From NCBI GenBank assembly GCA_029865965.1, contig JARXAJ010000298.1, positions 1 through 64,000 on the forward strand: 64,000 bases of DNA, in the 5' to 3' direction. A model generated the notes under the pieces. It did no database searches, had not been told where the DNA came from, and was given only the letters and a program-made list of their open reading frames with translations. Source of the stretch: Aquabacterium sp. Its GTDB lineage: Bacteria; Pseudomonadota; Gammaproteobacteria; Burkholderiales; Burkholderiaceae_C. This document shows positions 5,135 through 47,659 of the stretch, piece by piece. Position 1 is the stretch's first letter; every line of letters begins with the position of its first letter. A program made the translations under genes and the position numbers.

Positions 5135-5149
5135 GGCTCGCTGACGGCC

Positions 5150-6397: not shown

Positions 6398-7783
6398 ATG
6401 AAACGTTCATTGGCCTCGATCGTCCGCAAGTCGCTGCACCAGGCAGTGCGCATGGCGCTGGGCATGCTGCCGCGCAGCCTGCGTTTTGCGTTGTTCCGCA
6501 ACCTGATCGACTGTGACGACCAGCCCGACGCGCGCCTGGAACTGAAGATCGCCGACACCCAGGACGAACTGGAAGCGTGCTTCCGCATCCTGCATGACGC
6601 CTATGTCGCCGCAGGCTTCATGCAGCCTGACCCGTCGGGCCTGCGGGTGACGATCTACCACGCTCTGCCCACCACCACCACACTGTGTGCCAAGTGGGAC
6701 GGGCAGGTGGTCGGCACGATTTCGATGATCCGCGAAGGCGTTTTCGGCTTTCCGCTGCAATCGGTCTTCAACCTCGGCCAGGTTCGGTCAAAGACCGGCA
6801 AGATCGCTGAGATCTCGGCATTGGCAATCGACCCGAAGTTCCGCCACACCGGCGGGCGCATCTTGTTCCCGCTGATGAAGTTCATGTATGAGTACTGCCG
6901 CGTGTACTTCGACACCCGGCACATCGTGATCGCGGTCAACCCGAACAAGATCGAGATGTATGAATCGCTGCTGTTCTTCGAACGCTTGCAGGCACGGGTG
7001 GTCGACAACTACGACTTTGCCAACGGCGCCCCGGCGGTGGGCGCCACGCTCGACCTGCAGCACGCGCATGAAGCCTTCCGCACGGCCTATGCTGGCAAGC
7101 GGCCGCGCAAGAACCTGCTGCGCTACTTCGTCGAGACCCGGCTGCCCAACATCCGGGCGCCCCACCGGCGGTTTTTCACCACCAACGACCCGGTGCTGAC
7201 GCCGGCGATGATGGACCACTTCTTCAACCAGCGCACCCAGGTCTTTCAGACACTGAACGACCGCCAGCGCCTGCTGTTGCAGTCGATCTACGACAGCCCG
7301 GCCTACCGTGCGGTACTGCCGGCGCCGTCGCCCGGCGCCGACGCAAGGCTGATCCTGCGCCAGCACCAGCGGTTCTCGATCCGCTGCCCGGCGCGGCTGT
7401 CGGTGCGCTCCTACGACACCAGGCTGCGCTACCCGCTGCAAGTGATCGAGCTGTCAATGCACGGTTTTCAGGCCGAATGCGCGCTGCCGCTGCCCGAGGG
7501 CACCCGCGGGTGGGTGGAGATCGATCTTGGCGAAAACGAAACGGCCCGCGCCGAAGCCACGGCGGTGCGCCGCCTGGAGGCGGGCGGCCAGGTGTGCTAT
7601 GGCTTTGCCGTGCCTATGCCTGACACCGCCTGGCGCCGCTGCGTGGTGGCGCTGCAGACCGGCAGCACACATTTCGACCTGGCGGCGGTGCAGCCAGTGC
7701 GTGCGCCACGGCGGCCAGCCAGCCACGCCACAGCCTCCATTCCAGCCATTGCGCCTAAACTAGAACTTGTTTTGCCGGATTGA
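6398..7783 (+). CDS. N-acyl amino acid synthase (FeeM/LuxI-like GNAT superfamily) fused to a C-terminal PilZ-like domain
   Basis: N-terminal acyltransferase-like 'KWDGQVVGTISMIREG...AEISALAIDPKFRHTGGRILFPLMKFMYEYC'; C-terminal 'RQHQRF' (RxxxR) and 'ELSMHG' (cf. [DN]xSxxG). ATG at 6398 chosen over the upstream ORF start at 5825. Confidence 0.7.
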   Translation: MKRSLASIVRKSLHQAVRMALGMLPRSLRFALFRNLIDCDDQPDARLELKIADTQDELEACFRILHDAYVAAGFMQPDPSGLRVTIYHALPTTTTLCAKWDGQVVGTISMIREGVFGFPLQSVFNLGQVRSKTGKIAEISALAIDPKFRHTGGRILFPLMKFMYEYCRVYFDTRHIVIAVNPNKIEMYESLLFFERLQARVVDNYDFANGAPAVGATLDLQHAHEAFRTAYAGKRPRKNLLRYFVETRLPNIRAPHRRFFTTNDPVLTPAMMDHFFNQRTQVFQTLNDRQRLLLQSIYDSPAYRAVLPAPSPGADARLILRQHQRFSIRCPARLSVRSYDTRLRYPLQVIELSMHGFQAECALPLPEGTRGWVEIDLGENETARAEATAVRRLEAGGQVCYGFAVPMPDTAWRRCVVALQTGSTHFDLAAVQPVRAPRRPASHATASIPAIAPKLELVLPD

Positions 7784-8008: not shown

Positions 8009-9391
8009 ATGGTCAGGTTGTTCAATCACTACTTCCACGCCTGGACCCTGCGGAAGGTCGCCTTCGACTTTCTTCTGTCGCTGCTGGCCTTGGCAGGCGT
8101 GGTCATGGCCCAGGCAGACAGCCTGAAACTGGCCATTCCGATGGCTGGCGCCCAGGTGGTGACGCTGGCGGCGGGCCTGTTCGTGATCAACAGCGCCTCG
8201 GGCCTGTACCAACGCGCCCAGGAATGGTCGGTGGTGGAAAGCACCCTGCGCGCCGCACTGGCCCTGGTAATGGCGCTGTTGCTCACCTACCAGATCTTCC
8301 AGGTGCTGCCGGTGAGCTTCGGCAATGTCGATGCCATCCGCACGTCGGCCATGCTGGTGATTGCGGCTTTGATCCTGCGCCGGGTGGTGATGGGTTACTG
8401 GGCCACCAAGTCACGCGCCGGCTCGCGCGTGCTGATCTTCGGCGCGGGCCCTGCGGCCCAGATGGTGGGCAGCACCCTGCGTGCGGCCGACCCGCTGGCC
8501 ACCATCGTCGGCTATTTCCCGGGCCCGAACGAAAAGCAGACCGCCGTGCCCGAGGCCGAGCGCCTCACAGCCGACCAACCCCTGACCCAGACCGCCCACC
8601 GCCTGGGTGTCGACGAAATCATCGTCGCGCTGACCGAGCGCAGGTCGGGCAGCATGCCGCTGCGTGAACTGCTCGACTGCAAGTTGTCAGGCGTGCGTGT
8701 GTTCGACGTCACCACCTACTTCGAGCGCATGCTGGGCCAGATCCGCATCGATTTCGTCAATGCCGGCTGGCTGATCTTCGGTGACGGCTTCAACCAGGGC
8801 TTCTACCGCACGGCGGTCAAGCGCATCTTCGACATCTTGTGCTCCAGCGTGCTGATCATCCTGGCAGCGCCGATCATGCTGATCACCGCCATCGCCATCA
8901 AGCTGGAGAGCCAAGGCCCGGTGTTCTACCGCCAGGAGCGGGTGGGTTACAACGGCAGGCCATTCCTGGTGACCAAGTTCCGCAGCATGCGCACCGATGC
9001 TGAAAAAGACGGCAAGCCGCGCTGGGCCACCGCCAATGACAGCCGCGTGACACGCGTGGGCAACATCATCCGCTTGATCCGGGTGGACGAGTTGCCGCAG
9101 CTGTTCAATGTGCTCACTGGCGACATGAGCCTGGTGGGGCCGCGCCCTGAGCGGCCATTCTTCGTCGAGCAGCTGACCAACGAGATCCCCTACTACGCGG
9201 TGCGCCACAGCATCAAGCCGGGTGTCACCGGCTGGGCCCAGGTGCGCTACCAGTACGGGTCGACGGTCGAAGATTCGCAGGAGAAGCTGCAGTACGACCT
9301 GTACTACGTGAAGAACCACAGCCTGTTCCTCGACTTCGTGATCCTGATCGAAACGGTGGGCGTGGTGCTCACCGGCAAGGGCGCCCGCTGA
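8009..9391 (+). CDS. Undecaprenyl-phosphate sugar phosphotransferase, PEP-CTERM/EpsB type
   Basis: C-terminal bacterial sugar transferase domain 'KRIFDILCSSVLIILAAPIMLITAIAIKLES...GPVFYRQERVGYNGRPFLVTKFRSMRTDAE...LVGPRPERPFFVEQL'; ATG 8009 preceded by 'caggaga'. Confidence 0.85.
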   Translation: MVRLFNHYFHAWTLRKVAFDFLLSLLALAGVVMAQADSLKLAIPMAGAQVVTLAAGLFVINSASGLYQRAQEWSVVESTLRAALALVMALLLTYQIFQVLPVSFGNVDAIRTSAMLVIAALILRRVVMGYWATKSRAGSRVLIFGAGPAAQMVGSTLRAADPLATIVGYFPGPNEKQTAVPEAERLTADQPLTQTAHRLGVDEIIVALTERRSGSMPLRELLDCKLSGVRVFDVTTYFERMLGQIRIDFVNAGWLIFGDGFNQGFYRTAVKRIFDILCSSVLIILAAPIMLITAIAIKLESQGPVFYRQERVGYNGRPFLVTKFRSMRTDAEKDGKPRWATANDSRVTRVGNIIRLIRVDELPQLFNVLTGDMSLVGPRPERPFFVEQLTNEIPYYAVRHSIKPGVTGWAQVRYQYGSTVEDSQEKLQYDLYYVKNHSLFLDFVILIETVGVVLTGKGAR

Positions 9392-9475: not shown

Positions 9476-11620
9476 ATGTTCAGCGTCGACGATCTGCTGA
9501 CCTTTCAACTGCCAAATACCGGCCTGCAAGCTGCTGGCTTCGGTCTGGTTGCGTTGCTGTATGCGGCATATGCAGCCCACCTGGTGCGCGGCGGCCTCTT
9601 GCGCAAGCCCAGCGACCGCGCGGCCCTGTGGTTCACCACGGCGGTGCTGGTCACGGCAGCCTGGGGGCTGACTGGCATGGTCGACCAGGTGTCGACCAAA
9701 CTCGCGACCTGGCACCTGGCGCTGGCCTTCGACCAGCTGCGTTATGCCGCCTGGGCGGGTTTCATGCTGCTGCTGTTGCGGCCGATGGTCACTGCGTTGG
9801 CGCCGTGGCGTGCGCGCTTGTGGCAGGCGTTGCCGGTTCTTCTTCTGGCCTTGGGCGGCGTGTGCAACCTCCTGCTGGGCTTGGCTGTCGGGCCCCAGGC
9901 GCTGGCCGCGCGCGGGCTGGTGATCAGCCAGCTGGCCTGGGCGGTGCTGGGTTTGCTGCTGGTGGAACAGGTCTTCCGTAACCAGGCCGAGCAGAACCGC
10001 TGGGGCGCCAAGCCGCTGTGCCTGGGCCTGGGCCTTCTGTTCCTGTTCGACATCTACCTGTTCAGCCAGGCTTTGATGTTTGGCAGCTTCGACAACGACG
10101 CACTTGCTGCCCGCAGCCTAGTGCATGCGGTGGCGGTGCCGCTGCTGCTGATGGCCAGCAGCCGCAGCCAGCGCTGGCTGACCAAGGTGCAGGTATCGAA
10201 GACCGCAGCGTTCTACTCGGCATCACTGCTGCTGATTGGCCTGTACCTGCTGTTCACCGCCGCAGTTGGCTACTACGTCCGGTTCTTCGGCGGCACCTGG
10301 GGCGGTGCGCTGCAGGTGGCGCTGCTGTTTGCGGCGCTGGTGGTGCTGTTGGTCTTGGTGTTCTCGGGCGCCATGCGCGCGCGGTTGCGGGTGTTCCTGG
10401 GCAAGAACTTCTTCAGCTACCGCTACGACTACCGCCTGGAGTGGCTGCGCTTCACCGCCATGCTGTCAACCAAGAGCGCGCCGCAGGAAGTGGGCGGGCT
10501 GGTGGTGCGCGGCCTGGCCAACATGGTGGAGTGCAGCGCGGGCAGCCTGTGGTTCAAGGCCCTGGGCGATGACCAGTTTGTGCAGTCGGCCGCCTGGAAC
10601 CTGCCCGACCTGCAGGTGCGCGAGCCGGTGGACTCATCGTTCTCACGCCTGATGGGTGAGCGCGAATGGATCATTGACCTGGGCGCTATCCGCGCTGGCA
10701 AGGGCGCGGACGACGAGACCGTGCAGCCGCCAGCCTGGCTGGATGGTCTGCCAGGTGTCTGGCTGGCGGTGCCTCTACTGGTCGGCGATGACATGCTGGG
10801 TTTTGTACTGCTGGCCAAACCCCGAACGGACGTGGCATTAGACTGGGAAGTACGCGACCTGCTCAAGACGGCTGCCCGCCAGGCGGCCGGCTTCCTGGCC
10901 CAGATGCACGCCACCGAGGCCCTGCTGGAAGCGCGCAAGTTCGACGCCTTCAACAAGATGAGCGCTTTCGTCGTGCACGACCTGAAGAACATCATCACCC
11001 AACTGTCGTTGATGACGAAGAATGCCGAGCGCCACAGCGATAACCCCGAATTCCAGGCCGACATGCTGATGACAGTGGAAAGCTCGCTCGAAAAAATGCG
11101 CCAAATGATGGTGCAACTGCGAGAGGGCGAAAAACCTGCCGGCTTGGCATCAGGTGTTGAACTGGCCCCCATCCTCCAACGCATTGAAGACGCGTCAAGA
11201 CACCGTGGCCGAAAAGTCGAGATCCACATGAATGACAGGTTGGCCACGCGCGGCCATGCACAGCGCCTGGAGCGTGTGATCGGCCATGTTGTGCAGAATG
11301 CCCTGGACGCCACGCCCGACTCGGGTAGGGTGTGGGTGCGCTTGGCGCAGGCAGCGGGGCGGGTGCTGGTGGAAGTGGGCGACACCGGCGCCGGTATGTC
11401 GCCTGAATTCATCCAGCACCGGCTGTTCCGGCCCTTCAACTCCACCAAGGCCAACGGCATGGGCATCGGTTCCTACGAGAGCTTTCAGTACATCAAGGAA
11501 CTCGGTGGGAGCATCGACGTGAAGAGTGAACTGGGACAAGGCACGGTGGTCACGCTGCTGATGCCTGTATTCGACCTGCGCACTGGCACCGACCTGCGCG
11601 CGTCCGCGCTGGCAGCATGA
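9476..11620 (+). CDS. prsK: PEP-CTERM system membrane histidine kinase PrsK
   Basis: N-terminal multi-TM region, GAF-like middle, 'SAFVVHDLKNIITQLSLMTKNAERHSDNPEFQ' and HATPase 'GDTGAGMSPEFIQHRLFRPFNSTKANGMGIGSYES'; immediately followed by the PrsR-type regulator. Confidence 0.85.
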   Translation: MFSVDDLLTFQLPNTGLQAAGFGLVALLYAAYAAHLVRGGLLRKPSDRAALWFTTAVLVTAAWGLTGMVDQVSTKLATWHLALAFDQLRYAAWAGFMLLLLRPMVTALAPWRARLWQALPVLLLALGGVCNLLLGLAVGPQALAARGLVISQLAWAVLGLLLVEQVFRNQAEQNRWGAKPLCLGLGLLFLFDIYLFSQALMFGSFDNDALAARSLVHAVAVPLLLMASSRSQRWLTKVQVSKTAAFYSASLLLIGLYLLFTAAVGYYVRFFGGTWGGALQVALLFAALVVLLVLVFSGAMRARLRVFLGKNFFSYRYDYRLEWLRFTAMLSTKSAPQEVGGLVVRGLANMVECSAGSLWFKALGDDQFVQSAAWNLPDLQVREPVDSSFSRLMGEREWIIDLGAIRAGKGADDETVQPPAWLDGLPGVWLAVPLLVGDDMLGFVLLAKPRTDVALDWEVRDLLKTAARQAAGFLAQMHATEALLEARKFDAFNKMSAFVVHDLKNIITQLSLMTKNAERHSDNPEFQADMLMTVESSLEKMRQMMVQLREGEKPAGLASGVELAPILQRIEDASRHRGRKVEIHMNDRLATRGHAQRLERVIGHVVQNALDATPDSGRVWVRLAQAAGRVLVEVGDTGAGMSPEFIQHRLFRPFNSTKANGMGIGSYESFQYIKELGGSIDVKSELGQGTVVTLLMPVFDLRTGTDLRASALAA

Positions 11621-12990
11621 GCAATACGGCCCCGTCGTCGTCGCCGCTGTTGATCGTCGAGGATGATCTGGCGCTGCAGAAGCAGATCAAGTGGAGCCTG
11701 GACCGGTTTGACTGCGTGACGGCGAGTGATCGTGAGTCGGCTCTGGTGGCCTTTCGGCGCCATCAGCCGGCGGTGGTGACGATGGACCTGGGCCTGCCGC
11801 CTGATCCGGATGCGACGAGTGAGGGGTTCAAGCTGCTGGAGCAGTTGCTTGCTGTCGACCCCAACGTCAAGGTGATCGTGCTGACGGGGCAGAACGACCA
11901 GGCCAATGCGCTCAGGGCGATTGCGTTAGGGGCGTACGACTTCTTTGCCAAGCCGTTTGAGCCCGAACTGCTGGGCTTGACCATCGACCGCGCATTTCGT
12001 CTGGCCGAGTTGCAGGCTGAGAACCGGCGGCTGCAGGCAGTCCACCAGCCAGATGCGTTGAGTGGCTTGATCACGCGGGATCCGGCGATGCTTCGCACGT
12101 GCCGATTGATCGAAAAGGTGGCGTCCAGCGATGCAACGGTGCTCTTGTTGGGCGAGAGCGGCACCGGAAAGGAGGTGCTTGCCCAGGGCTTGCACCAAGC
12201 CAGCAAGCGCGTTGGGCGGTTTGTGGGGATCAATTGCGCCGCGATTCCCGAGAACCTGCTGGAGAGCGAACTCTTCGGGCATGAGCGGGGCGCGTTCACT
12301 GGCGCCACCAAGACAACGCCAGGCAAGATTGAATCAGCCGATGGCGGCACGCTGATGTTGGACGAGATCGGCGATCTTCCCCAGTCGTTGCAGGCCAAGC
12401 TGCTGCGTTTCCTGCAAGAGCGAAAGTTTGAGCGGGTTGGCGGCCGGCAGGAGATCGCGGTCGATGTTCGTGTGGTGTGCGCCACGCACCAGCAACTCCA
12501 GACGCTGATTGCAGAACGGCGGTTCCGCGAGGACCTGTACTACAGGTTGGCGGAGATCGTGATCAACATCCCGCCCCTGCGGGATCGCCAGGGCGATGCG
12601 GTGCTGTTGGCGCAGTCATTCCTGCGCCGCTTTGGGCAGGATCAACGGAAAGGGAGTCTCATGTTCACCGACGACGCCTTGGCCGCCATCACGCAGCACC
12701 GATGGGCAGGAAACGTCCGTGAATTGCTCAATGTCGTGCGCCGCGCCGTGATCATGGCTGACGGCGGGCGCGTCACAGCCACCGACCTCGGGCTGGCCGC
12801 TGCGCCTGAATCGGGTGAGCGCGAGGCTGCGCCCGATCTGGACTTGCGCCGCGTTCGGGAGGCCGCCGAACGACAGGCCGTGCTGTCAGCGCTGGCATGG
12901 ACTGACAACAATGTTGCCAAGGCATCGGAGATGCTGGGTGTCAGCCGCCCCACCCTCTACGACTTGATGACACGCCTGTCGATTCGTTGA
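11617..12990 (+). CDS. prsR: PEP-CTERM system sigma-54-dependent response regulator PrsR
   Basis: Receiver domain 'LLIVEDDLALQKQIKWSL', sigma-54 AAA+ 'GESGTGKEVLAQGLH', 'GAFTGA', C-terminal Fis-type HTH 'NVAKASEMLGVSRPTLYDLMTRL'; overlaps prsK by 4 bp. Confidence 0.9.
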   Translation: MSNTAPSSSPLLIVEDDLALQKQIKWSLDRFDCVTASDRESALVAFRRHQPAVVTMDLGLPPDPDATSEGFKLLEQLLAVDPNVKVIVLTGQNDQANALRAIALGAYDFFAKPFEPELLGLTIDRAFRLAELQAENRRLQAVHQPDALSGLITRDPAMLRTCRLIEKVASSDATVLLLGESGTGKEVLAQGLHQASKRVGRFVGINCAAIPENLLESELFGHERGAFTGATKTTPGKIESADGGTLMLDEIGDLPQSLQAKLLRFLQERKFERVGGRQEIAVDVRVVCATHQQLQTLIAERRFREDLYYRLAEIVINIPPLRDRQGDAVLLAQSFLRRFGQDQRKGSLMFTDDALAAITQHRWAGNVRELLNVVRRAVIMADGGRVTATDLGLAAAPESGEREAAPDLDLRRVREAAERQAVLSALAWTDNNVAKASEMLGVSRPTLYDLMTRLSIR

Positions 12991-13007: not shown

Positions 13008-15776
13008 CTACAGCTTCTTCAGCAATTCAGTCACCTCGGGTTGGCCCTCGAACGCAGGGCCTAGCTTGCTGAGTGTTTCGAGTTCCTCGCGCGCCTGCAC
13101 CTTGTCGCCGTTCTTGACCAGCAAACGCGCCAACCCCATTCGAAAGACCGCCTCCTTGGGCGCTTGAGAGACTGCCTTGCGTTGCCACTCGATCGCCTTG
13201 CCTGTCTCGCCGTCAGCAGACAGGGCCAGCGCCAGCGTGTCCATCAGCTGTGCTTCGTTCGGTGATACCTTCAATGCCTGCGCTGCCAGCGTTGCGGCAC
13301 CCGGCTTGTTCTGCTGGACCATCAACCAGGCAACATTGTTCAGTGCCATCGCGTGTTCGGGTCGCAGTGCAAGCACTTCTCGAAAACGGTTCTCGGCGCG
13401 GGCGTAGTTGCCCTTGACCAACCAAGCTGCGCCGAGTTGAAAGACGACCTCTGGATGTCGCGGATGGTCCTTCATCCACGACGTCACGAACGCATCGGCT
13501 TCCTGCAAACGGCCAGCGGCGGCATAGAGTTCCACCAGGCGCACGGCCGCCTCGCGTGTCGATGCACGCTTGAGCGACTCTCGCATGGAGTTGATCGCTG
13601 CAGGCCAATCGCGTTGCAAGGCTTGGATGTCGGACTGCAGCTGCCAGCCGACAGACTCGTTCGGGCGATCCTTCTGAAGCTGCCTGGCGATCGCCAGTCC
13701 TTCATCGAACCGCTTGCGCGACACAGCCACCATGACGAGGGCTCGCCGGGCGGCAATGGAGTCAGGCGCCAGTTCCAGCGCGCGCCTGAGCGATCTCGTG
13801 GCGTTGTCGTGGTCCTGGGCTGCGAGGTAGCCTTCAGCCAGCCTCAGATGCGCCTGCGCCGATCCCGGCTTGATCGTTGTTGCCTTGGTGAGTGTTGCAA
13901 TCGCTTGCCGAAGATTGCCTCCGGCTACCTGGACCCGGGCGAGAGCGTCGAGCAGCAGCAGGTCGTCCGGCATCGCGGCCAACCCAGCCTCTGCCGCAAC
14001 GTTTGCGTTCTTGATGTCATGCCGCCCCAGCATGAAGTCGATCTGCACGACCCGTGCGGCAGCGTCGTCCGGGCTCTCCTTGACGGCGCGATCCAACAAC
14101 TCGACCACCTCTGTGGAGGCTGCGCCGGTGGAGCTCAACAACAGCGCCAATGCAACCATGGCCCGGCTGTTTTTGGGCTCGCGGGCCAGCACGGCCCTGT
14201 AGCGCTGTTGTGCATCCTCGGGTTTCTTTTCTGCCAGATCCAGGGCCACCAGTGTCGTGGTGGCCGCAAAGTAGGTCGGGTCTTTCGTCAGCGCCAGTTC
14301 CAGGCTCTTGCGCGCGCCAGGAATGTCCCTCTGCCTGATCAGCACCTTGCCGCGCAAGTGGTGTGGAAGCGGACTGTCTGCCATCTTTTCTTGCAGCCGA
14401 TCGATGGCCTTCAGCGCCTGTCCCGTTTCATTACGGCGCAGCCTCATGCTGATCAATGCCATGTCGGCATAGGTTGAACCGCCGCTGCCTGTCGCGATGG
14501 ACTCGAGCTCCTGCAGTCCGGCCTCCGGGTTGCCCTTGGACACTTGTGTCAAAGCCACCGCAGTCCGCAGGTTGACTGCGTCGGGACTCAGCTTGAGCGC
14601 ACGCTTGAAGAAGTCTTCAGCACGCACAAGATCGCCGGATAACAGATGCGATTCAGCGGCAAGCGCGAGATCCTCGGCCCTTGGCTGCTGCGCGTCGAGC
14701 AAGGACTTCAGGGGTGCAAGAGCCTTGTCTGGTTCTCCTGCGCGCAAATAGGTTTTTGCCAGCAGGCGGCGCGCCTCGGGCTGCTCAGGTGAGGCAGCGA
14801 GCACCTTCTTCAGATGGCGTTCTGCAAGCAGCGTCGACCCTCCGTTGAGTTCGACTGTCGCGGCCAACTGCAACACACTGGCGTTGTTCGGCGATGACTT
14901 CAGCAGTTGTTGTGTGATGCCCCGAGCAACCTGAAAGTTCGAGTCCAGCAGGGCGACATGCGCCTCGTAGTAGCGCGTCTCCAACCGGTCCGGGAGCACC
15001 TTGCGCATGTCGGCGACGCGGGCCTTGAACGCGGCCATGTCCCGCTGCTGGAACAACAACGCAGCCAGCCCTGCATGGGCCTCGGGATAGCGCGGGTCAC
15101 TGGCGAGGGCGTCCGCGAACGCCTTCTTGGCGCCCTCGAGGTCTCCTTGACTGATCCACAACAACTGGGCCTTGAGCAGCCACGCCTCCCGCAAGCGCGG
15201 CTTGTCCTTCAGCAGGCCGTCGACCTGGGTCAGCGCATCGTCTATCGCACCTTTGCCGGCGGTCAATCGCGCCATTTGCAGCCGCGCGGACAGGTTCTGC
15301 TCATCGGCCGCAAGGGCCGCCTTCAGCGCAATTTCGCACTCGGCCATCTGCCCGAGCGTCGCATGCGCCGCTGCCACGGCCGCCTTCAGTTCGGCATTGA
15401 CCTTTGGCGCGGTGAGCACCGTGGTGTTGTAACGGTCGACCACTGCCTTCGACTGGCCGGCTGCCACCATGGCCTTGGCCAACCAGGGCAGAACTTCGTC
15501 GTTGCTGAACCCCAAGCTTGCTGCGCGGTCCAGTTCTGCGACAGCGCTGGCAGAGTCCCCGTTCAGGAACAACGCACGACCGAGTAGGAATCGGGCTTCA
15601 GCAGACTGCGGGTTGCCTTGCAGCGCCGACTTCAATTGAAGCACTGCGCCAGCAGCGTCCTGTTTGTCGAGCAGAGCCTTGGCGGACGACAACAGCGCTG
15701 CCTCTGACGATCCGCCACAACCGCCCGCGACGGCAATTGCCGCCACCAGTGCCGCCGCCGTTGCAATCCGGTACAT
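13008..15776 (-). CDS. prsT: PEP-CTERM system TPR-repeat lipoprotein PrsT
   Basis: Lipobox 'AIAVAGGC', then tandem TPR repeats over ~900 aa; adjacent to prsKR. ORF extends to 15818 using a TTG start; ATG at 15776 preferred. Confidence 0.85.
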   Translation of the reverse strand: MYRIATAAALVAAIAVAGGCGGSSEAALLSSAKALLDKQDAAGAVLQLKSALQGNPQSAEARFLLGRALFLNGDSASAVAELDRAASLGFSNDEVLPWLAKAMVAAGQSKAVVDRYNTTVLTAPKVNAELKAAVAAAHATLGQMAECEIALKAALAADEQNLSARLQMARLTAGKGAIDDALTQVDGLLKDKPRLREAWLLKAQLLWISQGDLEGAKKAFADALASDPRYPEAHAGLAALLFQQRDMAAFKARVADMRKVLPDRLETRYYEAHVALLDSNFQVARGITQQLLKSSPNNASVLQLAATVELNGGSTLLAERHLKKVLAASPEQPEARRLLAKTYLRAGEPDKALAPLKSLLDAQQPRAEDLALAAESHLLSGDLVRAEDFFKRALKLSPDAVNLRTAVALTQVSKGNPEAGLQELESIATGSGGSTYADMALISMRLRRNETGQALKAIDRLQEKMADSPLPHHLRGKVLIRQRDIPGARKSLELALTKDPTYFAATTTLVALDLAEKKPEDAQQRYRAVLAREPKNSRAMVALALLLSSTGAASTEVVELLDRAVKESPDDAAARVVQIDFMLGRHDIKNANVAAEAGLAAMPDDLLLLDALARVQVAGGNLRQAIATLTKATTIKPGSAQAHLRLAEGYLAAQDHDNATRSLRRALELAPDSIAARRALVMVAVSRKRFDEGLAIARQLQKDRPNESVGWQLQSDIQALQRDWPAAINSMRESLKRASTREAAVRLVELYAAAGRLQEADAFVTSWMKDHPRHPEVVFQLGAAWLVKGNYARAENRFREVLALRPEHAMALNNVAWLMVQQNKPGAATLAAQALKVSPNEAQLMDTLALALSADGETGKAIEWQRKAVSQAPKEAVFRMGLARLLVKNGDKVQAREELETLSKLGPAFEGQPEVTELLKKL

Positions 15777-15861
15777 CCGATCAGGCTTCAAACGACGCTC
15801 CCAGTGGATCTTGGCCAAGACGATGCCCGGCAGGATCGTAGTACATCGATCCTCAAGAGGC

Positions 15862-16808: not shown

Positions 16809-17645
16809 ATGATCAAACTCAAGTCCGTTGTTTCAGCCATCGGCGCAGCTTGCCTGATGGCCATTGCGGCGCCCAGTTTCGCCACGCCCACGCTCGTGTT
16901 CAAGGACGGCGCCAACACATTCAGCATCGATCCTTTCGATGGCTTCGACTGGCAGTCGAATGCAACGGCGGTCGTGTCTCCGCCAGTGTTCAACGGCACC
17001 ACCGTGTTGACCACCAGCTTCCTGGCCTCTGCGTCCAAGATCAAGCTCGAAGGCGGCGGTGACGCCCTCAACGTGTCCGGCCTGGGCGTCGATTACGAGT
17101 TCACTGTCAAGGCAACGATTCGGGAAACCGTGGTGTGCGTGCTTCCTGTGGGCCCTGTCTGCCAGATTGCCGCGTTCACCGCAGTCGGCGGCTCGTACGA
17201 AATCTTCTACGATGATGTTGCGGATTCCAACATCCTGACTGGTACTGGCTTTGTGGATGGCCTGTCGATCCTGACCGGTACAATCGATCCCGGATTTGCA
17301 GGCACGTTCGCCCTGACCAGCGCCACCAGCGGCGCCGGCGTCTTCACCTTCAATGGTGCAGTGATGTCGACCGAAACCGACAACACCAAGGCTGCCTATT
17401 TCGCACCCGCACTGGCGCAGTCCAACGCTGCGTCCACGCTGCAGCTCGGCGGCACCGGGACGTCCTGGACGCCTCCCTCGTCGTGGACCGACGGCGGTGG
17501 CATTCCGACTGGTTCGCTGGTTTTCCAGGCCGACGGCAATCAGACCTTCGACCCCGCCAAGGTTCCGGAACCCGGCACGCTTGCTCTGGTGGGCCTGAGC
17601 CTGGCTGGTCTCGGCTTCGCACGTCGTCGCATCGCCAAGAAGTAA
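16809..17645 (+). CDS. PEP-CTERM sorting domain-containing secreted protein
   Basis: Signal peptide MIKLKSVVSAIGAACLMAIAAPSFA and C-terminal 'VPEPGTLALVGLSLAGLGFARRRIAKK'. Confidence 0.95.
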   Translation: MIKLKSVVSAIGAACLMAIAAPSFATPTLVFKDGANTFSIDPFDGFDWQSNATAVVSPPVFNGTTVLTTSFLASASKIKLEGGGDALNVSGLGVDYEFTVKATIRETVVCVLPVGPVCQIAAFTAVGGSYEIFYDDVADSNILTGTGFVDGLSILTGTIDPGFAGTFALTSATSGAGVFTFNGAVMSTETDNTKAAYFAPALAQSNAASTLQLGGTGTSWTPPSSWTDGGGIPTGSLVFQADGNQTFDPAKVPEPGTLALVGLSLAGLGFARRRIAKK

Positions 17646-26529: not shown

Positions 26530-26848
26530 CTTGCGCAGCCACCGAGGCAGGGTATCGCGCGATCATGCCGCCCTGCTTGCCCTTCCTCGGGCGATCAGCC
26601 AGGGCAGGCGAGGAACTGCAATGGGTGTTGCCTCTGTTGGTCCCCGCAAAGCCCGATTTGATTCCGTGAAGTCTTGGTCGTGTGCACCGACTGATCAAGC
26701 AAGCGGACTTCGCCCCGCGCACACCCTATGCGATCATCTGCAGCCCGGTTAGCCTCGCTGTCTGTGGTGTCATCACAACTTGCAAGGTGAGAGGGCTGCA
26801 TCTGGGCAGGAAGGCTGGATGCATGCCCATCTGAACAAGGACCCGACC

Positions 26849-27484
26849 ATGAAATTGACTTTGGATAGACGCGGCCGTTTGACTGTCTGGAGCATTCTCG
26901 GGCCGGCACTGCTGTCTCTGACGGCATGCGCATCGGGCCCGACATTGCCGGCTGCGCCCGTTGTCGCCGGCACCTCTGACGCCTACACCTACATCATCGG
27001 CGCCGGCGATGCGCTCAACATCATCGTCTGGCGCAACCCCGAGCTGTCAATGGCTGTGCCCGTCCGGCCTGACGGCAAGGTGGCCGCCCCGCTGGTTGAG
27101 GAAATCATCGCCCAGGGCAAGACAAGCACCCAGTTGGCGCGCGACATCGAGGCGCAACTGGGCAAGTACGTGCGTGACCCCGTCGTCACCGTCCTGGTCA
27201 CCGGCTTCGTCGGCCCCTACAGCGAGCAGATCCGCGTGGTGGGCGAGGCCGCCAAGCCTCAGTTCTTGAACTACAAGAAGAACATGACGCTGCTCGACGT
27301 GATGATCGCCGTGGGCGGCCTCACCGACTTTGCTGCCGGCAACAACGCATCCATCCTGCGTACCAGCGACGGTGGAAAGCAGTACGCCGTTCGGCTCAAG
27401 GATTTGATCAAGCGTGGTGATGTTTCGGCCAATGTCGAGATGAAACCCGGCGACATCCTGGTGATTCCGCAAAGCCTGTTCTGA
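26849..27484 (+). CDS. Polysaccharide export lipoprotein (Wza-like), XrtA/PEP-CTERM system type
   Basis: Lipobox 'LLSLTACAS'; 'YIIGAGDALNIIVWRNPELSMAVPVRPDGKVAAPLVEEIIAQGKT' poly-export domain; SLBB-like 'VVGEAAKPQFLNYKKNMTLLDVMIAVGGL'. Confidence 0.9.
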   Translation: MKLTLDRRGRLTVWSILGPALLSLTACASGPTLPAAPVVAGTSDAYTYIIGAGDALNIIVWRNPELSMAVPVRPDGKVAAPLVEEIIAQGKTSTQLARDIEAQLGKYVRDPVVTVLVTGFVGPYSEQIRVVGEAAKPQFLNYKKNMTLLDVMIAVGGLTDFAAGNNASILRTSDGGKQYAVRLKDLIKRGDVSANVEMKPGDILVIPQSLF

Positions 27485-27520
27485 CCGTGCGCAACGTTTT
27501 GCAAGCCTGAGCCAGACAAG

Positions 27521-29113
27521 ATGGAAGAGTTGATCGCTCAAGTCACATCGTTCGCCCGCGGGATGTGGCGCTTCCGCTGGACGGGCCTGATCGTCGCCTG
27601 GATCGTGGGCGTCGTGGGCGCTGTCGTGGCTTTCAAGGTGCCCGATCGTTATGAGGCGGCAGCACGCATCTTTGTCGACACCCAATCCATTCTCAAGCCG
27701 CTGATGTCAGGCCTGGCTGTTCAACCCAACGTCGACCAGCAAGTGGCCATGCTCAGCCGCACGCTGATCAGCCGGCCGAACATCGAGAAGTTGATCCGCA
27801 TGGCCGACCTGGACTTGAAAAGCGAGTCCAAGGCCCAGCAGGATGGGCTGATAGAAGGCTTGACGAGGACGTTGGAGATCAAGAGTGCCGGCCGCGACAA
27901 TTTGTACACGCTGAACTATGTCGACGCCGACAAGGACAAGGCCAAGCGGGTGATCCAGTCGATGGTGTCGATCTTCGTCGAGTCCAGCCTGGGGGCCAGC
28001 CGCAAGGACACCGATTCAGCCAAGGTCTTCCTGGACGAGCAGATCAAGGGGTATGAAACCAAGCTCGAAGAAGCCGAGGCGCGGCTGAAGGACTTCCGAC
28101 TGCGCAACATCGACATGCAGACCGGCGACGGCAAGGATTCCGCCTCCCGGTTGATGGAAGTCACGCAGGCGCTTGAAAACGCCAAACTGCAGCTGCGTGA
28201 GGCAGAGCAGGCGCGAGACGCTGCTAAAAAGCAGATGGATCTGGAAAAGGGGGGCTCCCCAGCCGACGCTGCCACCCAGAGCCTGCTGCAAGAGTCGTCG
28301 CTCGCGGTGGCAACGCCTGAGATCGATGCACGCCTGGAGTTGCAGCGGCGCAATCTCGACAGCCTGATGCAGCGGTTCACAGACCAACACCCCGATGTCG
28401 TGAGCACCCGGCGCCTGATTGGCGAGTTGGAGAAGCAAAAGGCCAAGGAAGTGGCTGAGCTGCGCAAAGCCGCCATGGCGGTTCCATCGGCCAACAACAA
28501 CATGGGGCCCGGAGCGAATCTTGCAGTGCAAGAGCTGGCCCGGATGCTCGCCACGTCGGAAGTGCAAGTGGCAGCCCTGCGCGCACGCGTCAGTGAATTC
28601 CAGGCCCGGCACGCGCAGGCCAAGTCGCTGACGCGCACTTCTCCCCAGATCGAAGCTGAAGCGGCGCAGTTGAACCGCGACTACGCCATCGTCAAGAAGA
28701 ACTATGAAGATCTGGTCGCCCGCCGGCAGTCTGCAGTGATGTCGGGCGACCTGGACATGGCGTCTGGCGTGGTCGACTTCCGATTGATCGACCCGCCGCG
28801 CGTCTCGCCGCGTCCGGTGTCGCCAAACCGCATGTTGCTGCTGTTGGCGGCGCTGGGTGCCGCCTTGGCGGCAGGTTTGGTGACCACGTTCATTGCAAGC
28901 CAGGTGCGGCCGGTGTTCGACGACGTTCAGCAACTGCGTGCCAGCACCGGGCTGCCTCTGCTGGGCGTGGTGTCGATGATCCTCAGCGACGACGACAAGC
29001 GGCGTGAGCGATCGAGCCGGGTGAGATTCTTCTTGGGAACCGGCAGCCTGCTGGCGTCCTACCTGGTGGCCTTGGTCACCGTGTCCATCATTGCCGCCCG
29101 GCAGGTCGGCTAA
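27521..29113 (+). CDS. Chain-length determinant/Wzc N-terminal-type protein (XrtA system)
   Basis: Wzz-like N-terminus 'RYEAAARIFVDTQSILKPLMSGLAVQPNVDQQVAMLSRTLISRPNIEKLI', long coiled coil, C-terminal TM 'MLLLLAALGAALAAGLVTTFI'. Confidence 0.9.
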   Translation: MEELIAQVTSFARGMWRFRWTGLIVAWIVGVVGAVVAFKVPDRYEAAARIFVDTQSILKPLMSGLAVQPNVDQQVAMLSRTLISRPNIEKLIRMADLDLKSESKAQQDGLIEGLTRTLEIKSAGRDNLYTLNYVDADKDKAKRVIQSMVSIFVESSLGASRKDTDSAKVFLDEQIKGYETKLEEAEARLKDFRLRNIDMQTGDGKDSASRLMEVTQALENAKLQLREAEQARDAAKKQMDLEKGGSPADAATQSLLQESSLAVATPEIDARLELQRRNLDSLMQRFTDQHPDVVSTRRLIGELEKQKAKEVAELRKAAMAVPSANNNMGPGANLAVQELARMLATSEVQVAALRARVSEFQARHAQAKSLTRTSPQIEAEAAQLNRDYAIVKKNYEDLVARRQSAVMSGDLDMASGVVDFRLIDPPRVSPRPVSPNRMLLLLAALGAALAAGLVTTFIASQVRPVFDDVQQLRASTGLPLLGVVSMILSDDDKRRERSSRVRFFLGTGSLLASYLVALVTVSIIAARQVG

Positions 29114-29118
29114 AGCCC

Positions 29119-30114
29119 ATGAGCAGCTTGATCGAACAGGCGGCTGAGCGCCTGGCCAAGATTCGAGAGGCCGGCATCGAACTGCCGGACATGCCCGCCA
29201 ACCTGAATCCAGCAGCGCTGGCTGTCGAGCCGGTGGCCGCGTCTCAGCAGATGTCGCGTGCCGAATTGCAGCCCATCCCGCTGTCCAAACCGGTTCAGCT
29301 TGACCTGATCGGGCTCGCAGCCGCAGGGTTCCTCGTTCCTGCTGCCCCACGGTCACACATGGCCGACCAATACCGTGTCATCAAGCGGCCGCTGATTGCC
29401 AACGCCACCGCCAAGGGGGCTGCCCGCGTCACGCATGGCAACCTGATCATGTTGACAAGCGCCATGCCAGGCGAAGGCAAGAGTTTCACCGCCATCAACC
29501 TGGCGATGAGCATCGCATCCGAGCTCGACCACACGGTGATGCTGGTCGATGCTGACGTGGCGCGGCCCTCGGTCTTGAAGAAGCTGGGCTTGCCTGAGGC
29601 GCCCGGCCTGCTCGACCTGCTGGAGGGCAAGGCCGAAATGAGCGATGTGCTGATGCGCACCAACATCGACAAGCTCACCATCTTGCCCAGCGGCCGGCCG
29701 CATCCCAAGTCCACCGAGCTCTTGGCCAGCGACACGATGCGGCAGCTGCTCAGCGGCATGGCCTCCCGCTATCCAGACCGCATCATCATCTTTGATTCGC
29801 CGCCATTGCTGCTGACGACCGAGTCGCGCGTGCTGGCTGCGCAGATGGGTCAGGTGGTGCTGGTGGTGCATGCGGGCAAGACCTTGCAGGCCGATGTGCA
29901 GCACGCCCTGTCGACGATCGAGAACTGCCCGATCAGGATGATGCTATTGAACAAGGCGCGCACCGACACCCAGGGCGCTTACGGCTATGGGTATGGCTAC
30001 GGCTATGGCTATGGCTACGGTGAAAGTTATGGCTATGGTTATGGCGACAAGGCACAGCCCCAGGCTGACACTGCCATTGCCCGAGGACTGGCCGATGCTC
30101 CCAAGGCAGGCTGA
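29119..30114 (+). CDS. BY-kinase (CpsD/CapB family), XrtA-associated tyrosine kinase
   Basis: 'LIMLTSAMPGEGKSFTAINLA' Walker A, 'MLVDADVARPS' Walker A', 'IIIFDSPPLLL'; Tyr-rich C-terminal tail. Confidence 0.9.
   Translation: MSSLIEQAAERLAKIREAGIELPDMPANLNPAALAVEPVAASQQMSRAELQPIPLSKPVQLDLIGLAAAGFLVPAAPRSHMADQYRVIKRPLIANATAKGAARVTHGNLIMLTSAMPGEGKSFTAINLAMSIASELDHTVMLVDADVARPSVLKKLGLPEAPGLLDLLEGKAEMSDVLMRTNIDKLTILPSGRPHPKSTELLASDTMRQLLSGMASRYPDRIIIFDSPPLLLTTESRVLAAQMGQVVLVVHAGKTLQADVQHALSTIENCPIRMMLLNKARTDTQGAYGYGYGYGYGYGYGESYGYGYGDKAQPQADTAIARGLADAPKAG
29974..30047 (+). repeat. Degenerate GGY-TAY hexamer repeat encoding (Gly-Tyr)n tail
   Basis: ggctatgggtatggctacggctatggctatggctacggtgaaagttatggctatggttat; 10 Tyr codons in ~25. 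Confidence 0.9.
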
Positions 30115-31666
30115 CTGGGCGCGGCCTGCAAGGCGGGGCTCTCAAGGGGTTGCCGGCGGGCGCAGCGTGTCGGGGGCCGTGGCTTGCAGCCTCACGCTGT
30201 GGACTGGGCTGTGCGCAGCGCAGGGCGCCAGTGCAACAGGTGCGCTCTCGCTGCAGCCCAGCATCACGCTGTCGCAGACATTGACCGACAACTACCAAGT
30301 GACAGCCACCAATGCCGCAAGCGATGCCGTGACACGGCTGGGTGCCGGCGTTGTGTTGCGCGCCCGGTCTGGTCTTGTCCAGGGGTTCCTGGACTACGCG
30401 ATGACGGGGGTGCTTTATGCACGCCACAGCGGCCTGAACTCTCTACAGAACGCCTTGAATGCGAATCTGGCAACCGACCTGATTGAAGACAGGCTTCAGC
30501 TCAATGCCGCAGCTGGAATCTCGCGCTCGGCCGTGTCTGCATTCGGCGTGCAGGCTGGCGCAGGCACTGACGCCAACAGCAACACGACCGAAGTTCGTAC
30601 GCTGCGCGTCAGCCCGGCACTGCGGGGTCCGCTGGGGCCAAATCTGCGCTACGACGCAAGGCTGAGCTACCAGGTCAGCGACGCCGCTGACGGCAGCTTG
30701 GGCGATTCCGACAGCACCACAGCCAGCCTCCACATTGAACCCACCAGCCGCGGTCGTCTGAGCTGGTCTGTCGATGCACAGCACCAGCTGTCGAGCTTCA
30801 AGCTGGGAAGAAGCACCCGGACAGACCGGCTGTTTGGCGCCCTGTTGCTGGCACTGCCCGAGCAGGATCTGCAGCTGCGGGGCACGCTGGGTGTCGAGCG
30901 AACTGACCAGCTTGCGATCAACAGCCGCAGCTACAAAAACTGGGGCCTGGGTGCGGTCTGGGCGCCGTCTCCGGTGACACGCTTGTCTGCCGACACCGAG
31001 AACAGGTATTACGGGCGGTCGCACTCGGTGTCGTTGGAGCACCGAACACCGCGCACCATCTTCCGCTACCGCAACGCCCGGTCGGCTTCGTCCGACACCA
31101 ACACCACCCCAGGGCGACGCGGAACGGCATTCGACCTGTTGTTTGCCCAGCTTGCATCCGCCCAGCCTGATCCGGTCTTGCGTGAGGATCTGGTCAACAG
31201 GCTCTTGCGCGACCAGGGCATCGACCCGCGGCAGGTGGCTGGTGCGGGCTTTCTGCAGTCTGCGTCGTCTGTGCAAGACCTGCAGGAGTTCTCTGCAGCC
31301 TGGACCGGCCCGCGCAACGCGATCGTTGCGAGTCTTGGGCACACCAAAACACGACGCCTGGATCCGCTGTCCGGTGCGGTCGATGACCTGTCGGGCGGCA
31401 CTGCGGTCAGCACGGACAACCTGTCGTTGAACGTGTCGCACCGGCTCACGCCTTTGTCGTCGCTGAACATGTTCCTCACCGTGCAGCGGGGCAGTGGCCA
31501 ATTCGGCGGCCAGTCCATCAGCCAGAACGTCGCCGAGCTGCAGTACAGCACCCGCCTCACGCCCGACAGCACCCTGGGCCTGAACCTGCGGCGCGCGCAC
31601 TACAAGACCGGCCAGGTGCCGTATGACGAAACGGCGGCCACCGCCACCTACGGCAAGCGGTTCTAG
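30095..31666 (+). CDS. PEP-CTERM system-associated outer-membrane protein (TIGR03016-like)
   Basis: 'LQPSITLSQTLTDNYQVTA' N-terminus, beta-barrel-like remainder, position between BY-kinase and ExeA-like ATPase as in XrtA loci. Confidence 0.75.
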   Translation: MLPRQADWARPARRGSQGVAGGRSVSGAVACSLTLWTGLCAAQGASATGALSLQPSITLSQTLTDNYQVTATNAASDAVTRLGAGVVLRARSGLVQGFLDYAMTGVLYARHSGLNSLQNALNANLATDLIEDRLQLNAAAGISRSAVSAFGVQAGAGTDANSNTTEVRTLRVSPALRGPLGPNLRYDARLSYQVSDAADGSLGDSDSTTASLHIEPTSRGRLSWSVDAQHQLSSFKLGRSTRTDRLFGALLLALPEQDLQLRGTLGVERTDQLAINSRSYKNWGLGAVWAPSPVTRLSADTENRYYGRSHSVSLEHRTPRTIFRYRNARSASSDTNTTPGRRGTAFDLLFAQLASAQPDPVLREDLVNRLLRDQGIDPRQVAGAGFLQSASSVQDLQEFSAAWTGPRNAIVASLGHTKTRRLDPLSGAVDDLSGGTAVSTDNLSLNVSHRLTPLSSLNMFLTVQRGSGQFGGQSISQNVAELQYSTRLTPDSTLGLNLRRAHYKTGQVPYDETAATATYGKRF

Positions 31667-31668
31667 CC

Positions 31669-32796
31669 ATGTATGAATCGTTCTACGGGCTGACCAACAA
31701 GCCCTTCCAGCTCAACCCCGACCCCAACTTCTACTTCGGCAGCAAGCAGCACCGTCGCGCCAAGGCCTACCTGGACTACGGCGTGTCGCGCAACGAGGGC
31801 TTCATCGTCATCACCGGCGAGATCGGCGCTGGCAAGACCACCCTGCTGCGTGCGCTGATCGACGGCCTGCACGGCAGCAACGTGGTGGTGGGCCACCTGG
31901 TCACCACCCAGCTGGGCGCCGAAGACACCTTGCGCATGGTGGGCGCGTCCTTCGGCTTCAAGGTCAAGGATGTGCCCAAGAGCGAGCTGCTGATCACTCT
32001 TGAGGCCTTCCTCATTAGCCAGACCACCAAGGGCAAGCGCTGCCTGCTGATCGTCGACGAGGCGCAGAACCTCACGCCCCGGGCGGTGGAAGAGCTGCGC
32101 ATGCTGTCGAACTTCCAGTTCGGCAACCAGGCGCTGATGCAGAGCTTTCTGGTCGGCCAGCCCGAGTTCCGGGAAATCCTGCAGCGCCCCGAGATGGAGC
32201 AGTTCCGCCAGCGGGTGGCGGCCACCTGCCACATCGGGCCGATGGACCTGGACGAGACCCGGCACTACATCGAGCACCGGCTCAAATGCGCCGGTTCCAC
32301 CGGCAAGCCCGGCTTCACGCCTGAAGCATTCGAGGCCATCTTCAAGGCCAGCGGCGGCATTCCACGCCGCATCAACTCAGTCTGCGACCGGGTGCTCCTT
32401 GCCGGCTTCCTGGCCGGCAAGACCCACCTCGAGCAGTCGGATGTCGACGAGGTGGTGAAGGAATTCGCCCAGGAAGCTGCCGTGCCCGCGCGGCGGCCTG
32501 TGGGTGTTGGTGGCAATTTGGCGCCAGACAGCAACATCGGTGAGTTGTCAAATGCGGGCCCCATGACAGGCGCCATCGCACTGGATGTCGACCTGAGCGC
32601 GCTGCAGCTTGACCCGGCTGCGGCCGACACCATGGCGCGGCAGCTTTCGCGGCTGTCATCTGAACAACGTGGCGACCAGATCCAGCGGCTCGAGCGCGGC
32701 CTGCTGCGGCTGGAGCGCAGCAACTTGCAAGTGCTGACGATGCTGCAGCAGCTGGTGGCTGCGGTGAAGAAGCCTCTCGACGAAGGCCCGAAATGA
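31669..32796 (+). CDS. XrtA-associated AAA ATPase (ExeA/GspA-like)
   Basis: 'MYESFYGLTNKPFQLNPDPNFYFGSKQHRRAKAYLDYGV', 'ITGEIGAGKTTLLRAL', 'LLIVDEAQNL'. Confidence 0.9.
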   Translation: MYESFYGLTNKPFQLNPDPNFYFGSKQHRRAKAYLDYGVSRNEGFIVITGEIGAGKTTLLRALIDGLHGSNVVVGHLVTTQLGAEDTLRMVGASFGFKVKDVPKSELLITLEAFLISQTTKGKRCLLIVDEAQNLTPRAVEELRMLSNFQFGNQALMQSFLVGQPEFREILQRPEMEQFRQRVAATCHIGPMDLDETRHYIEHRLKCAGSTGKPGFTPEAFEAIFKASGGIPRRINSVCDRVLLAGFLAGKTHLEQSDVDEVVKEFAQEAAVPARRPVGVGGNLAPDSNIGELSNAGPMTGAIALDVDLSALQLDPAAADTMARQLSRLSSEQRGDQIQRLERGLLRLERSNLQVLTMLQQLVAAVKKPLDEGPK

Positions 32797-33965
32797 CGCC
32801 CGAGCATGAAGACCGCTACGAGGCCAGTGCCTTGCCTGGCCCGGTGATGTGCGTGGTCGGCGCCCGACCCAATTTCATGAAGATGGCGCCGATCCTGCGT
32901 GCGTTGGCCAACCACCGGCCGCCCATTCCCGCCCTGTTGGTGCACACCGGCCAGCACTATGACCAGGGCATGAGCCACCAGCTGTTCGACGACTTGGGCC
33001 TGCCGCAGCCCGATCTGAACCTGGAAGTGGGCTCCGGCTCGCACGCCGTGCAGACGGCCGAGGTGATGAAGCGCTTCGAGCCGGCGCTGGATGCGCACAA
33101 ACCGGGCTGCGTGCTGGTGGTTGGCGATGTCAATTCGACGCTGGCTTGCACCCTGGTGGCCGTCAAGAAGAGCGTGCCCGTGGTGCATGTGGAAGCCGGC
33201 CTGCGCAGCTGGGACCGCAAGATGCCCGAAGAGATCAACCGCGTGTTGACCGACCAAGTGGCCGACCGGCTCTACACCACCGAGCGCAGCGCACTCGACA
33301 ACCTGTTGCGCGAGGGTATCGCCGAGGCGCGGGTGTGCTTTGCCGGCAATGTGATGATCGACTCGCTGGTGGCCAACAAGCCCAAGGCGCGGCCGGCTGC
33401 CCACACGTTGCAGGCCCACGGCGTCGACCCGGCGCTGGTGGCACAGCCCGGTGGTTACGGTGTGGTCACGCTGCACCGGCCGTCCAATGTGGACGACACC
33501 GACACCTTGCGCGCCCTGCTGTCGGTGCTGGGCGAGGTGGCGATGCAGCTGCCGCTGGTGTTTGCACTGCACCCCCGCACCCGCAACAACATCGACCGGT
33601 TTGGCTTGTCCAACCTGATCGACACCACCCGCACGGCGCTGCTGCCACCGCAGGGTTATCTGGAGATGCTCGGCCTGATGCGGGACGCCACGCTGGTGCT
33701 GACCGATTCCGGCGGCTTGCAGGAAGAAACCACCGCGCTGGGTGTGCCTTGCCTGACGCTGCGCGAGAACACCGAGCGCCCGATCACCGCCGAGCAAGGC
33801 ACCAACACCCTGGTGGGGCGCGACCGCAGCGCCATCCTGGCCGCTGTGGCTGAGATCCTGCGTGGCGACGGCAAGCGCGGCCGTGTGCCCGAGTACTGGG
33901 ACGGCCAGGCGGCCGATCGCATTGCGGCGGACCTGCACCGTTGGCTGCTGGCAGGCGCACCGTGA
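32793..33965 (+). CDS. wecB: UDP-N-acetylglucosamine 2-epimerase (non-hydrolysing)
   Basis: 'VVGARPNFMKMAPILRAL', 'HTGQHYD', 'HVEAGLRSWDRKMPEEINR', 'DSGGLQEE'. Confidence 0.9.
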   Translation: MTPEHEDRYEASALPGPVMCVVGARPNFMKMAPILRALANHRPPIPALLVHTGQHYDQGMSHQLFDDLGLPQPDLNLEVGSGSHAVQTAEVMKRFEPALDAHKPGCVLVVGDVNSTLACTLVAVKKSVPVVHVEAGLRSWDRKMPEEINRVLTDQVADRLYTTERSALDNLLREGIAEARVCFAGNVMIDSLVANKPKARPAAHTLQAHGVDPALVAQPGGYGVVTLHRPSNVDDTDTLRALLSVLGEVAMQLPLVFALHPRTRNNIDRFGLSNLIDTTRTALLPPQGYLEMLGLMRDATLVLTDSGGLQEETTALGVPCLTLRENTERPITAEQGTNTLVGRDRSAILAAVAEILRGDGKRGRVPEYWDGQAADRIAADLHRWLLAGAP

Positions 33966-34846
33966 CGGCAGGCGTCGCTGGGCGCGGGCCCATCACCAAC
34001 GCCCTGACCATCGACGTCGAAGACTACTTCCAGGTCTCGGCGATGGCGCCCTACATCCGCCGCAGCGAATGGGACACGCGTGAATGCCGCGTCGAAGCCA
34101 ACGTCGACCGCATCCTGGCTTTGTTGGCCAGGCACCACACACATGCCACCTTCTTCACCCTGGGCTGGGTGGCCGAGCGCTACCCGCAACTGGTGCGCCG
34201 CATCGTTGATGGCGGGCATGAGCTGGCCAGCCACGGCCACGGCCACGAGCGCGCCAGCGACCTCAGCCGTGAGGCCTTCACCCAGGACATCGTGCGCGCC
34301 AAGCGCCTGCTGGAAGACTTGGGCGGTGTGGCGGTTCAGGGCTACCGTGCGCCCAGCTTCTCCATCGGCCACGGCAACCTGTGGGCGTTCGATTGCCTGC
34401 TGGAAACCGGCCACCGCTACAGCAGCAGCATCTACCCGATCCAGCACGACCATTACGGCATGCCAGACGCACCCCGTTTTGCCCATGCAGTGCGTGACGG
34501 CCTGCTGGAAGTGCCGGTGACCACGGTGCGCCTGGGCGACCGCAACCTGCCGTCGTCGGGCGGCGGCTGGTTCCGGCTGTTCCCCTATGCGCTGACGCGC
34601 TGGATGATCCAGCGCGTCAACCGGCAGGACGGCGCGGCGGCGATCTTCTATTTCCATCCCTGGGAAATCGATCACGGCCAACCCCGCATTCCCGGTATCA
34701 ACCTGAAGACGCGGTTCCGGCACTATGTGAACATTGGCCGCACCGAACAGCGGCTGGACGCGCTGTTGAGCGACTTCCGCTGGGGTCGCATGGACGACAT
34801 CTTCCTGCCACACACTTCGCCCGGCCGGCTTGCGGCAGCGAACTGA
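33962..34846 (+). CDS. XrtA system polysaccharide deacetylase (DUF3473-type)
   Basis: 'NALTIDVEDYFQVSAM', 'ATFFTLGWVAERYPQLVRRI', 'GYRAPSFSI', 'YFHPWEID'; GTG start overlapping wecB stop. Confidence 0.9.
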   Translation: MTAGVAGRGPITNALTIDVEDYFQVSAMAPYIRRSEWDTRECRVEANVDRILALLARHHTHATFFTLGWVAERYPQLVRRIVDGGHELASHGHGHERASDLSREAFTQDIVRAKRLLEDLGGVAVQGYRAPSFSIGHGNLWAFDCLLETGHRYSSSIYPIQHDHYGMPDAPRFAHAVRDGLLEVPVTTVRLGDRNLPSSGGGWFRLFPYALTRWMIQRVNRQDGAAAIFYFHPWEIDHGQPRIPGINLKTRFRHYVNIGRTEQRLDALLSDFRWGRMDDIFLPHTSPGRLAAAN

Positions 34847-34858
34847 ACCTCCACACCC

Positions 34859-35896: not shown

Positions 35897-35917
35897 CGGG
35901 CCGGCGCACAGCACACC

Positions 35918-38733: not shown

Positions 38734-38777
38734 CACTGCCCAATGGACAATTGCTTTTTTGGCAGACGGCAACAGAG

Positions 38778-40054
<1,277 letters not shown>

Positions 40055-40058
<4 letters not shown>

Positions 40059-42874: not shown

Positions 42875-42885
42875 GCCGGCCCGTC

Positions 42886-44493: not shown

Positions 44494-44509
44494 GACGGCA
44501 ACCTCGCGC

Positions 44510-45676: not shown

Positions 45677-45697
45677 AACCAAGGGATCACAGACACC

Positions 45698-47641: not shown

Positions 47642-47659
47642 CCGACCGGACCAGTCTCG

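Follow-up and report, generated by a model that had tools for sequence, protein, structure and literature searches.

The window analyzed here is a 64,000-nucleotide stretch from an Aquabacterium sp. genome (contig JARXAJ010000298.1, positions 1 to 64,000). At the edge of an XrtA/PEP-CTERM exopolysaccharide (EPS) locus in this window, the opening gene encodes an N-acyl amino acid synthase (NAS) domain followed by a helical linker and a PilZ domain (Table 1). The translation contains no internal stop. A longer in-frame ATG at 5825 was rejected as the start, as homologs with 52–86% identity align from the ATG at 6398. The first-pass annotation had described a FeeM-like N-terminal region joined to a PilZ-like C-terminal region and had proposed profile searches as a check. 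Both Pfam profiles scored above their curated cut-offs: FeeM (PF21926) at residues 60–219 with E=1e-43 and 149.3 bits against a cut-off of 27, and PilZ (PF07238) at residues 321–411 with E=5.8e-7 and 30.2 bits against a cut-off of 22.5. The NAS–PilZ fusion is real. An NCBIfam scan with the linker by itself returned no match, and TIGR03694, the PEP-CTERM/exosortase-associated acyltransferase family, gave 14.8 bits, below its curated cut-off of 111.95.

Table 1. Features of the NAS–PilZ gene and of the adjoining locus (window positions)
Feature	Position	Strand	Basis or remark
NAS–PilZ gene	6398..7783	+	461 aa
FeeM-type N-acyl amino acid synthase (GNAT-fold) domain, residues 60–219	6575..7054	+	PF21926; PDB 2g0b by sequence and fold
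Putative catalytic glutamate E138 (IAE[I/V]SALA)	6809..6811	+	Aligns with FeeM glutamate (KLAEV)
Helical linker, residues 220–312	7055..7333	+	Conserved TTNDPV motif at residues 261–266
PilZ domain, residues 313–430	7334..7687	+	Six-stranded barrel and C-terminal helix; PF07238, AlphaFold2, Foldseek
RxxxR motif RQHQR, residues 321–325	7358..7372	+	Conservation in homologs
[E/Q]xSxxG variant of [D/N]xSxxG: ELSMHG, residues 351–356	7448..7465	+	Conservation in homologs
EpsB2-type XrtA/PEP-CTERM glycosyltransferase	8009..9391	+	TIGR03013; next gene, same strand
PrsK histidine kinase	9476..11620	+	TIGR02916
PrsR sigma54-type response regulator	11617..12990	+	TIGR02915
PrsT TPR protein	13008..15818	-	TIGR02917
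PepA flocculation-associated PEP-CTERM protein	16809..17645	+	NF033554
Remaining XrtA/EPS locus	26780..52808		Export TIGR03027, chain length TIGR03007, ATPase TIGR03015, amidotransferase TIGR03108, O-ligase TIGR03097
Exosortase A	37153-38733		TIGR03109

The EPS/PEP-CTERM locus that the annotation had placed next to the gene was confirmed by the identification of genes for EpsB2, PrsK, PrsR, PrsT, PepA and exosortase A. A PhoD-like phosphatase gene (PF09423; window 5159–6133, minus strand) is divergent from the NAS–PilZ gene. A study of floc formation in Aquincola tertiaricarbonis found prsT to be necessary and also yielded an epsB2 insertion mutant; pepA depends on RpoN there, and an rpoN1 mutant regains flocs with pepA (PMC9850573). 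A sigma54-like TGGCATGCTCGTTGC at window 16743–16757 (plus strand), 52 bases upstream of pepA, fits an RpoN-dependent pepA, in a window where sigma54-like matches are no more numerous than expected by chance. Upstream of the NAS–PilZ gene, no sigma54 (PrsR) promoter was found within one mismatch. No sigma70-like promoters were found, and no Rfam elements in 4000–19000.

An AlphaFold2 model of the full protein, with 81 homologs in the alignment, reached a pLDDT of 90.2 and a pTM of 0.86; the tail (residues 444–461) is the sole long stretch with pLDDT below 50. The best Foldseek match of this model was FeeM (2g0b; E=2e-10, TMt 0.77–0.83), which was also the only relevant solved relative found by sequence. 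FeeM shares its fold and catalytic glutamate with residues 60–219, but it is 23–25% identical to our protein and consists of a single domain with neither linker nor PilZ. E138, within KIAEISALA, is invariant (81 of 81 homologs) and aligns with the glutamate of the FeeM KLAEV motif. Exchange of its counterpart in Nas354, Glu103, for alanine abolishes activity (PMC4897644). Structure prediction, also proposed as a check, recovered both the FeeM and the PilZ fold. The annotation had made its reading depend on a PilZ fold in the model and on residues compatible with LuxI/FeeM acyl transfer, and since both were found, the two domain calls stand.

The formation of N-acyl amino acids from acyl-ACP and an amino acid is established for FeeM and Nas enzymes (PMC4897644), and we predict that our protein very probably catalyzes the same reaction. 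Of the label FeeM/LuxI-like, the first half is borne out by profile and fold, whereas the second reaches no further than the fold level, at which the Foldseek matches to BjaI and RpaI rank below FeeM. Having a fold in common with these two AHL synthases is the one feature that would suit a diffusible quorum-type signal as the product. We regard such a product as very improbable: FeeM is far nearer than any LuxI in both sequence and fold, no LuxI family is matched in the Pfam or NCBIfam results for the protein, and no dedicated receptor gene was seen near the NAS–PilZ gene. The annotation had offered an acylated amino acid signal or lipid; a surfactant-like lipoamino acid is the better supported of the two, a LuxI-like signal having only the fold in its favor.

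By sequence, the PilZ region had no match in the PDB, so comparison of folds was needed. Modeled alone, the region reached a pLDDT of 85, and its first 38 PDB matches in Foldseek were all PilZ structures. The matches include YcgR, MapZ, BcsA, Alg44, PA0012 and VCA0042, many with bound c-di-GMP. The c-di-GMP receptors YcgR, MapZ, BcsA, Alg44 and PA4608 have the barrel fold, RxxxR and SxxG in common with our protein, but motif 2 opens here with E or Q, not with D or N. Both motifs named by the annotation, RQHQR (residues 321–325) and ELSMHG (residues 351–356), are present, and their contact residues R321 (79), R325 (81), S353 (79, with A in the other 2) and G356 (80) each recur in at least 79 of the 81 homologs. 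The literature gives (D/N)x(S/A)xxG as the general PilZ motif (PMC10653909), which places the S-to-A exchanges of two homologs (L056 and L062) within the known range. Measured against that pattern, ELSMHG keeps S and G and carries E at the D/N position. Because of this replacement we class the region, which has both the RxxxR motif and the PilZ barrel, as a PilZ domain and not as a proven c-di-GMP receptor.

The annotation had taken the E in ELSMHG as a possible sign of an altered or lost ligand site. Across the family this does not look like a loss: of the 81 homologs, 66 have E at residue 351, 14 have Q and 1 has D, and the other four contact positions are near-invariant. With one or the other of E and Q at this residue in 80 homologs, decay of motif 2 is rejected at the family level. 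The same site pattern with E or Q recurs in 83 of 92 non-redundant copies. A tree of the NAS part and linker alone makes E the ancestral state of residue 351 in these homologs, and parsimony gives five changes at this position, all between E and Q except for one D. Mean pairwise identity is 41% in the PilZ region versus 81% in the NAS domain. Of 118 PilZ positions, 17 reach at least 95% conservation, and each of the four canonical contact positions is among them (chance 3e-4). Given a residue 351 that is consistently E or Q, and R, S and G positions that barely vary in a fast-changing domain, the ligand site is probably kept, with an [E/Q]xSxxG variant. As the usual motif offers an acid or its amide, D or N, at this position, E and Q would seem to provide equivalent chemistry on a side chain with one more carbon. 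Among other PilZ proteins of the relatives, read by hand, few have a recognizable motif 2, mostly with D, and they are too few for statistics. No papers combining "ExSxxG" and PilZ were found.

PilZ proteins without a ligand exist, and here too the synthase could be active while its PilZ domain, instead of binding c-di-GMP, provides docking or contact with a membrane or another protein. The E or Q in place of D/N would suit such a role, as would the divergence of a domain that mostly lies under Pfam detection (25 of 81 homologs reach Pfam PilZ at E 0.01), the loss of the motif 2 glycine in tandem second copies at two related loci (L007 and L011), and a Bdellovibrio relative with NxAxxG but without RxxxR. 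We nonetheless consider a non-binding domain rather unlikely, since R321, R325, S353 and G356 persist in at least 97% of the 81 homologs while their surroundings change, a pattern that would be difficult to account for in a domain with no ligand, and since E/Q preserves the acid/amide chemistry of D/N. The genome encodes 24 GGDEF matches versus only three PilZ proteins. Taken together, site conservation, fold and GGDEF abundance make gating of the synthase by c-di-GMP through its PilZ domain reasonably probable.

The NAS–PilZ architecture itself has been known since 2016, when Thies et al. described this organization, its product and its catalytic residue, and proposed regulation by c-di-GMP (PMC4897644). 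Their metagenomic proteins Nas343 and Nas354, once cloned, make N-myristoyltyrosine; they are active in E. coli, and the role of PilZ was not demonstrated there (PMC4897644). Like our protein, they have the two domains in the same order, the catalytic glutamate and an unexplained linker of equal length. In a comparison of published positions, the spacing from Nas354 Glu103 to its modeled PilZ domain (279–394) equals that from E138 to 314–429 here. Our protein differs from Nas343 and Nas354 by about 35 extra N-terminal residues and the disordered tail. A precedent for the switching of a NAS enzyme by a cyclic nucleotide exists, with a nucleotide other than c-di-GMP. A literature search, with most subscription journals outside its scope, found no follow-up work on the function of PilZ in NAS–PilZ proteins.

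A scan of a genome collection yielded 154 relatives, and the best 80 of the 154 are full-length and nearly all from Burkholderiales or Rhodocyclales; a search of a phage collection gave no match. Within the order, the NAS–PilZ protein occurs in 6 of 399 sampled genomes, this one included, versus 134 of 399 with FeeM domains above cut-off. The annotation was therefore correct that the PilZ fusion is less common, but the coupling had already been described in Nas343 and Nas354 (PMC4897644). Within the genus, by contrast with the order, the gene is present in 19 of 21 genomes and in all 12 of high quality, which makes it a core gene. The genome analyzed here also carries a second, stand-alone FeeM-type synthase gene on another contig (C302; L002:1261-2187, minus strand). 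At three related loci, a tandem second NAS–PilZ copy lies downstream of the first (L007:10255-11586, L021:9278-10621 and L011:10350-11542); motif 2 is intact in the L021 copy, and the L011 copy is split over two frames. Second copies were also seen in three genomes of the genus (G779, G780 and G781); the ones in G780 and G781 contain an internal TGA.

We found PrsT at 36, PrsR at 31, PrsK at 24 and EpsB at 22 of the 80 related loci within about 8 kb of the NAS–PilZ gene, counts that are lower bounds because of contig ends. A culturable relative, the Rubrivivax pictus strain of L003 (83% identity), has a locus order nearly identical to that of the window. Several different gene orders nevertheless occur around the gene in the set, so shared synteny of sister species does not account for the link. 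The Accumulibacter and Dechloromonas copies do not adjoin PEP-CTERM genes. XrtA is above cut-off in 16 of 16 NAS–PilZ carrier genomes versus 3 of 17 non-carriers, although these counts lack phylogenetic independence, with 11 of the 16 carriers in one genus. Linkage of NAS genes to PEP-CTERM is credited to Craig et al. 2011 in the papers that cite that work (PMC4897644, PMC11072679). A trypsin-like serine protease gene, recognized by eye, also lies near the NAS–PilZ gene (L057:3709-4533), with similar ORFs in 28 of the 80 loci.

Homology to two more distant proteins extends through the linker. The FeeM–ThiF–nitroreductase proteins (PRK14852/NF011425) of Nitratidesulfovibrio pDVUL01 align with residues 13–308, the NAS core and linker, but carry a C-terminal ThiF and nitroreductase where our protein has PilZ. 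On pDVUL01 of Nitratidesulfovibrio vulgaris, the gene of the 989-aa protein (L189:5016-7985) is flanked on one side by a TIGR03013 glycosyltransferase/TPR pair and on the other by two THxN PEP-CTERM genes. The Bdellovibrio relative (415 aa; HAGR004 plasmid, L188:255-1502) is 43% identical over residues 15–308, and its PilZ-like tail, recognized by eye, has no Pfam match; its gene is directly followed by a glycosyltransferase gene and then rfbB. Linkage to XrtA/EPS genes, and the presence of the ThiF-fused homologous core among PEP-CTERM genes in Nitratidesulfovibrio, would also accord with an acceptor other than a free amino acid, namely a PEP-CTERM protein, an exopolysaccharide aminosugar or a polyamine, acylated as a step of the adjoining surface system. 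We judge this improbable: FeeM, NasY and the same-architecture Nas343 and Nas354 all yield N-acyl amino acids (PMC4897644), and several Rhodocyclaceae copies are located outside EPS loci.

As a whole, the best explanation, which we favor by some margin over even chances, is a c-di-GMP-controlled lipoamino acid synthase that serves the EPS/PEP-CTERM surface. With E138 in the catalytic role, the FeeM-type domain would accept a long-chain acyl moiety from acyl-ACP and attach it to a free amino acid at the amino group; the leading guess for this acceptor is tyrosine or another aromatic. On the turn to sessile life, c-di-GMP from the cell's many diguanylate cyclases would bind R321/R325 and the E351–S353–G356 edge of the PilZ barrel, and the linker would transmit the resulting change to the synthase. 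From the linkage we infer that the product works in the EPS/PEP-CTERM matrix: together with what the adjoining genes make, exopolysaccharide and PEP-CTERM proteins, the surface-active lipoamino acid would contribute, for instance, to the cohesion of flocs or biofilms. In a bolder form, which we think unlikely, NAS–PilZ would be a c-di-GMP-operated lipid arm of the XrtA/PEP-CTERM system that senses c-di-GMP in a distinct [E/Q]xSxxG pocket and turns on a lipoamino acid needed for matrix assembly or anchoring, with ThiF replacing PilZ in other phyla.

To the architecture described in 2016, our analysis adds the family-wide E/Q motif variant, the status of a core gene in the genus, the repeated placement beside PrsKRT/EpsB, and the fusion of a homologous NAS core and linker to ThiF and nitroreductase at a Nitratidesulfovibrio PEP-CTERM locus. 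A genus-core synthase with a second-messenger-type domain of its own, encoded beside the PrsK, PrsR, PrsT and PepA floc genes, makes both switching by c-di-GMP and a need for the product in the matrix directly testable.
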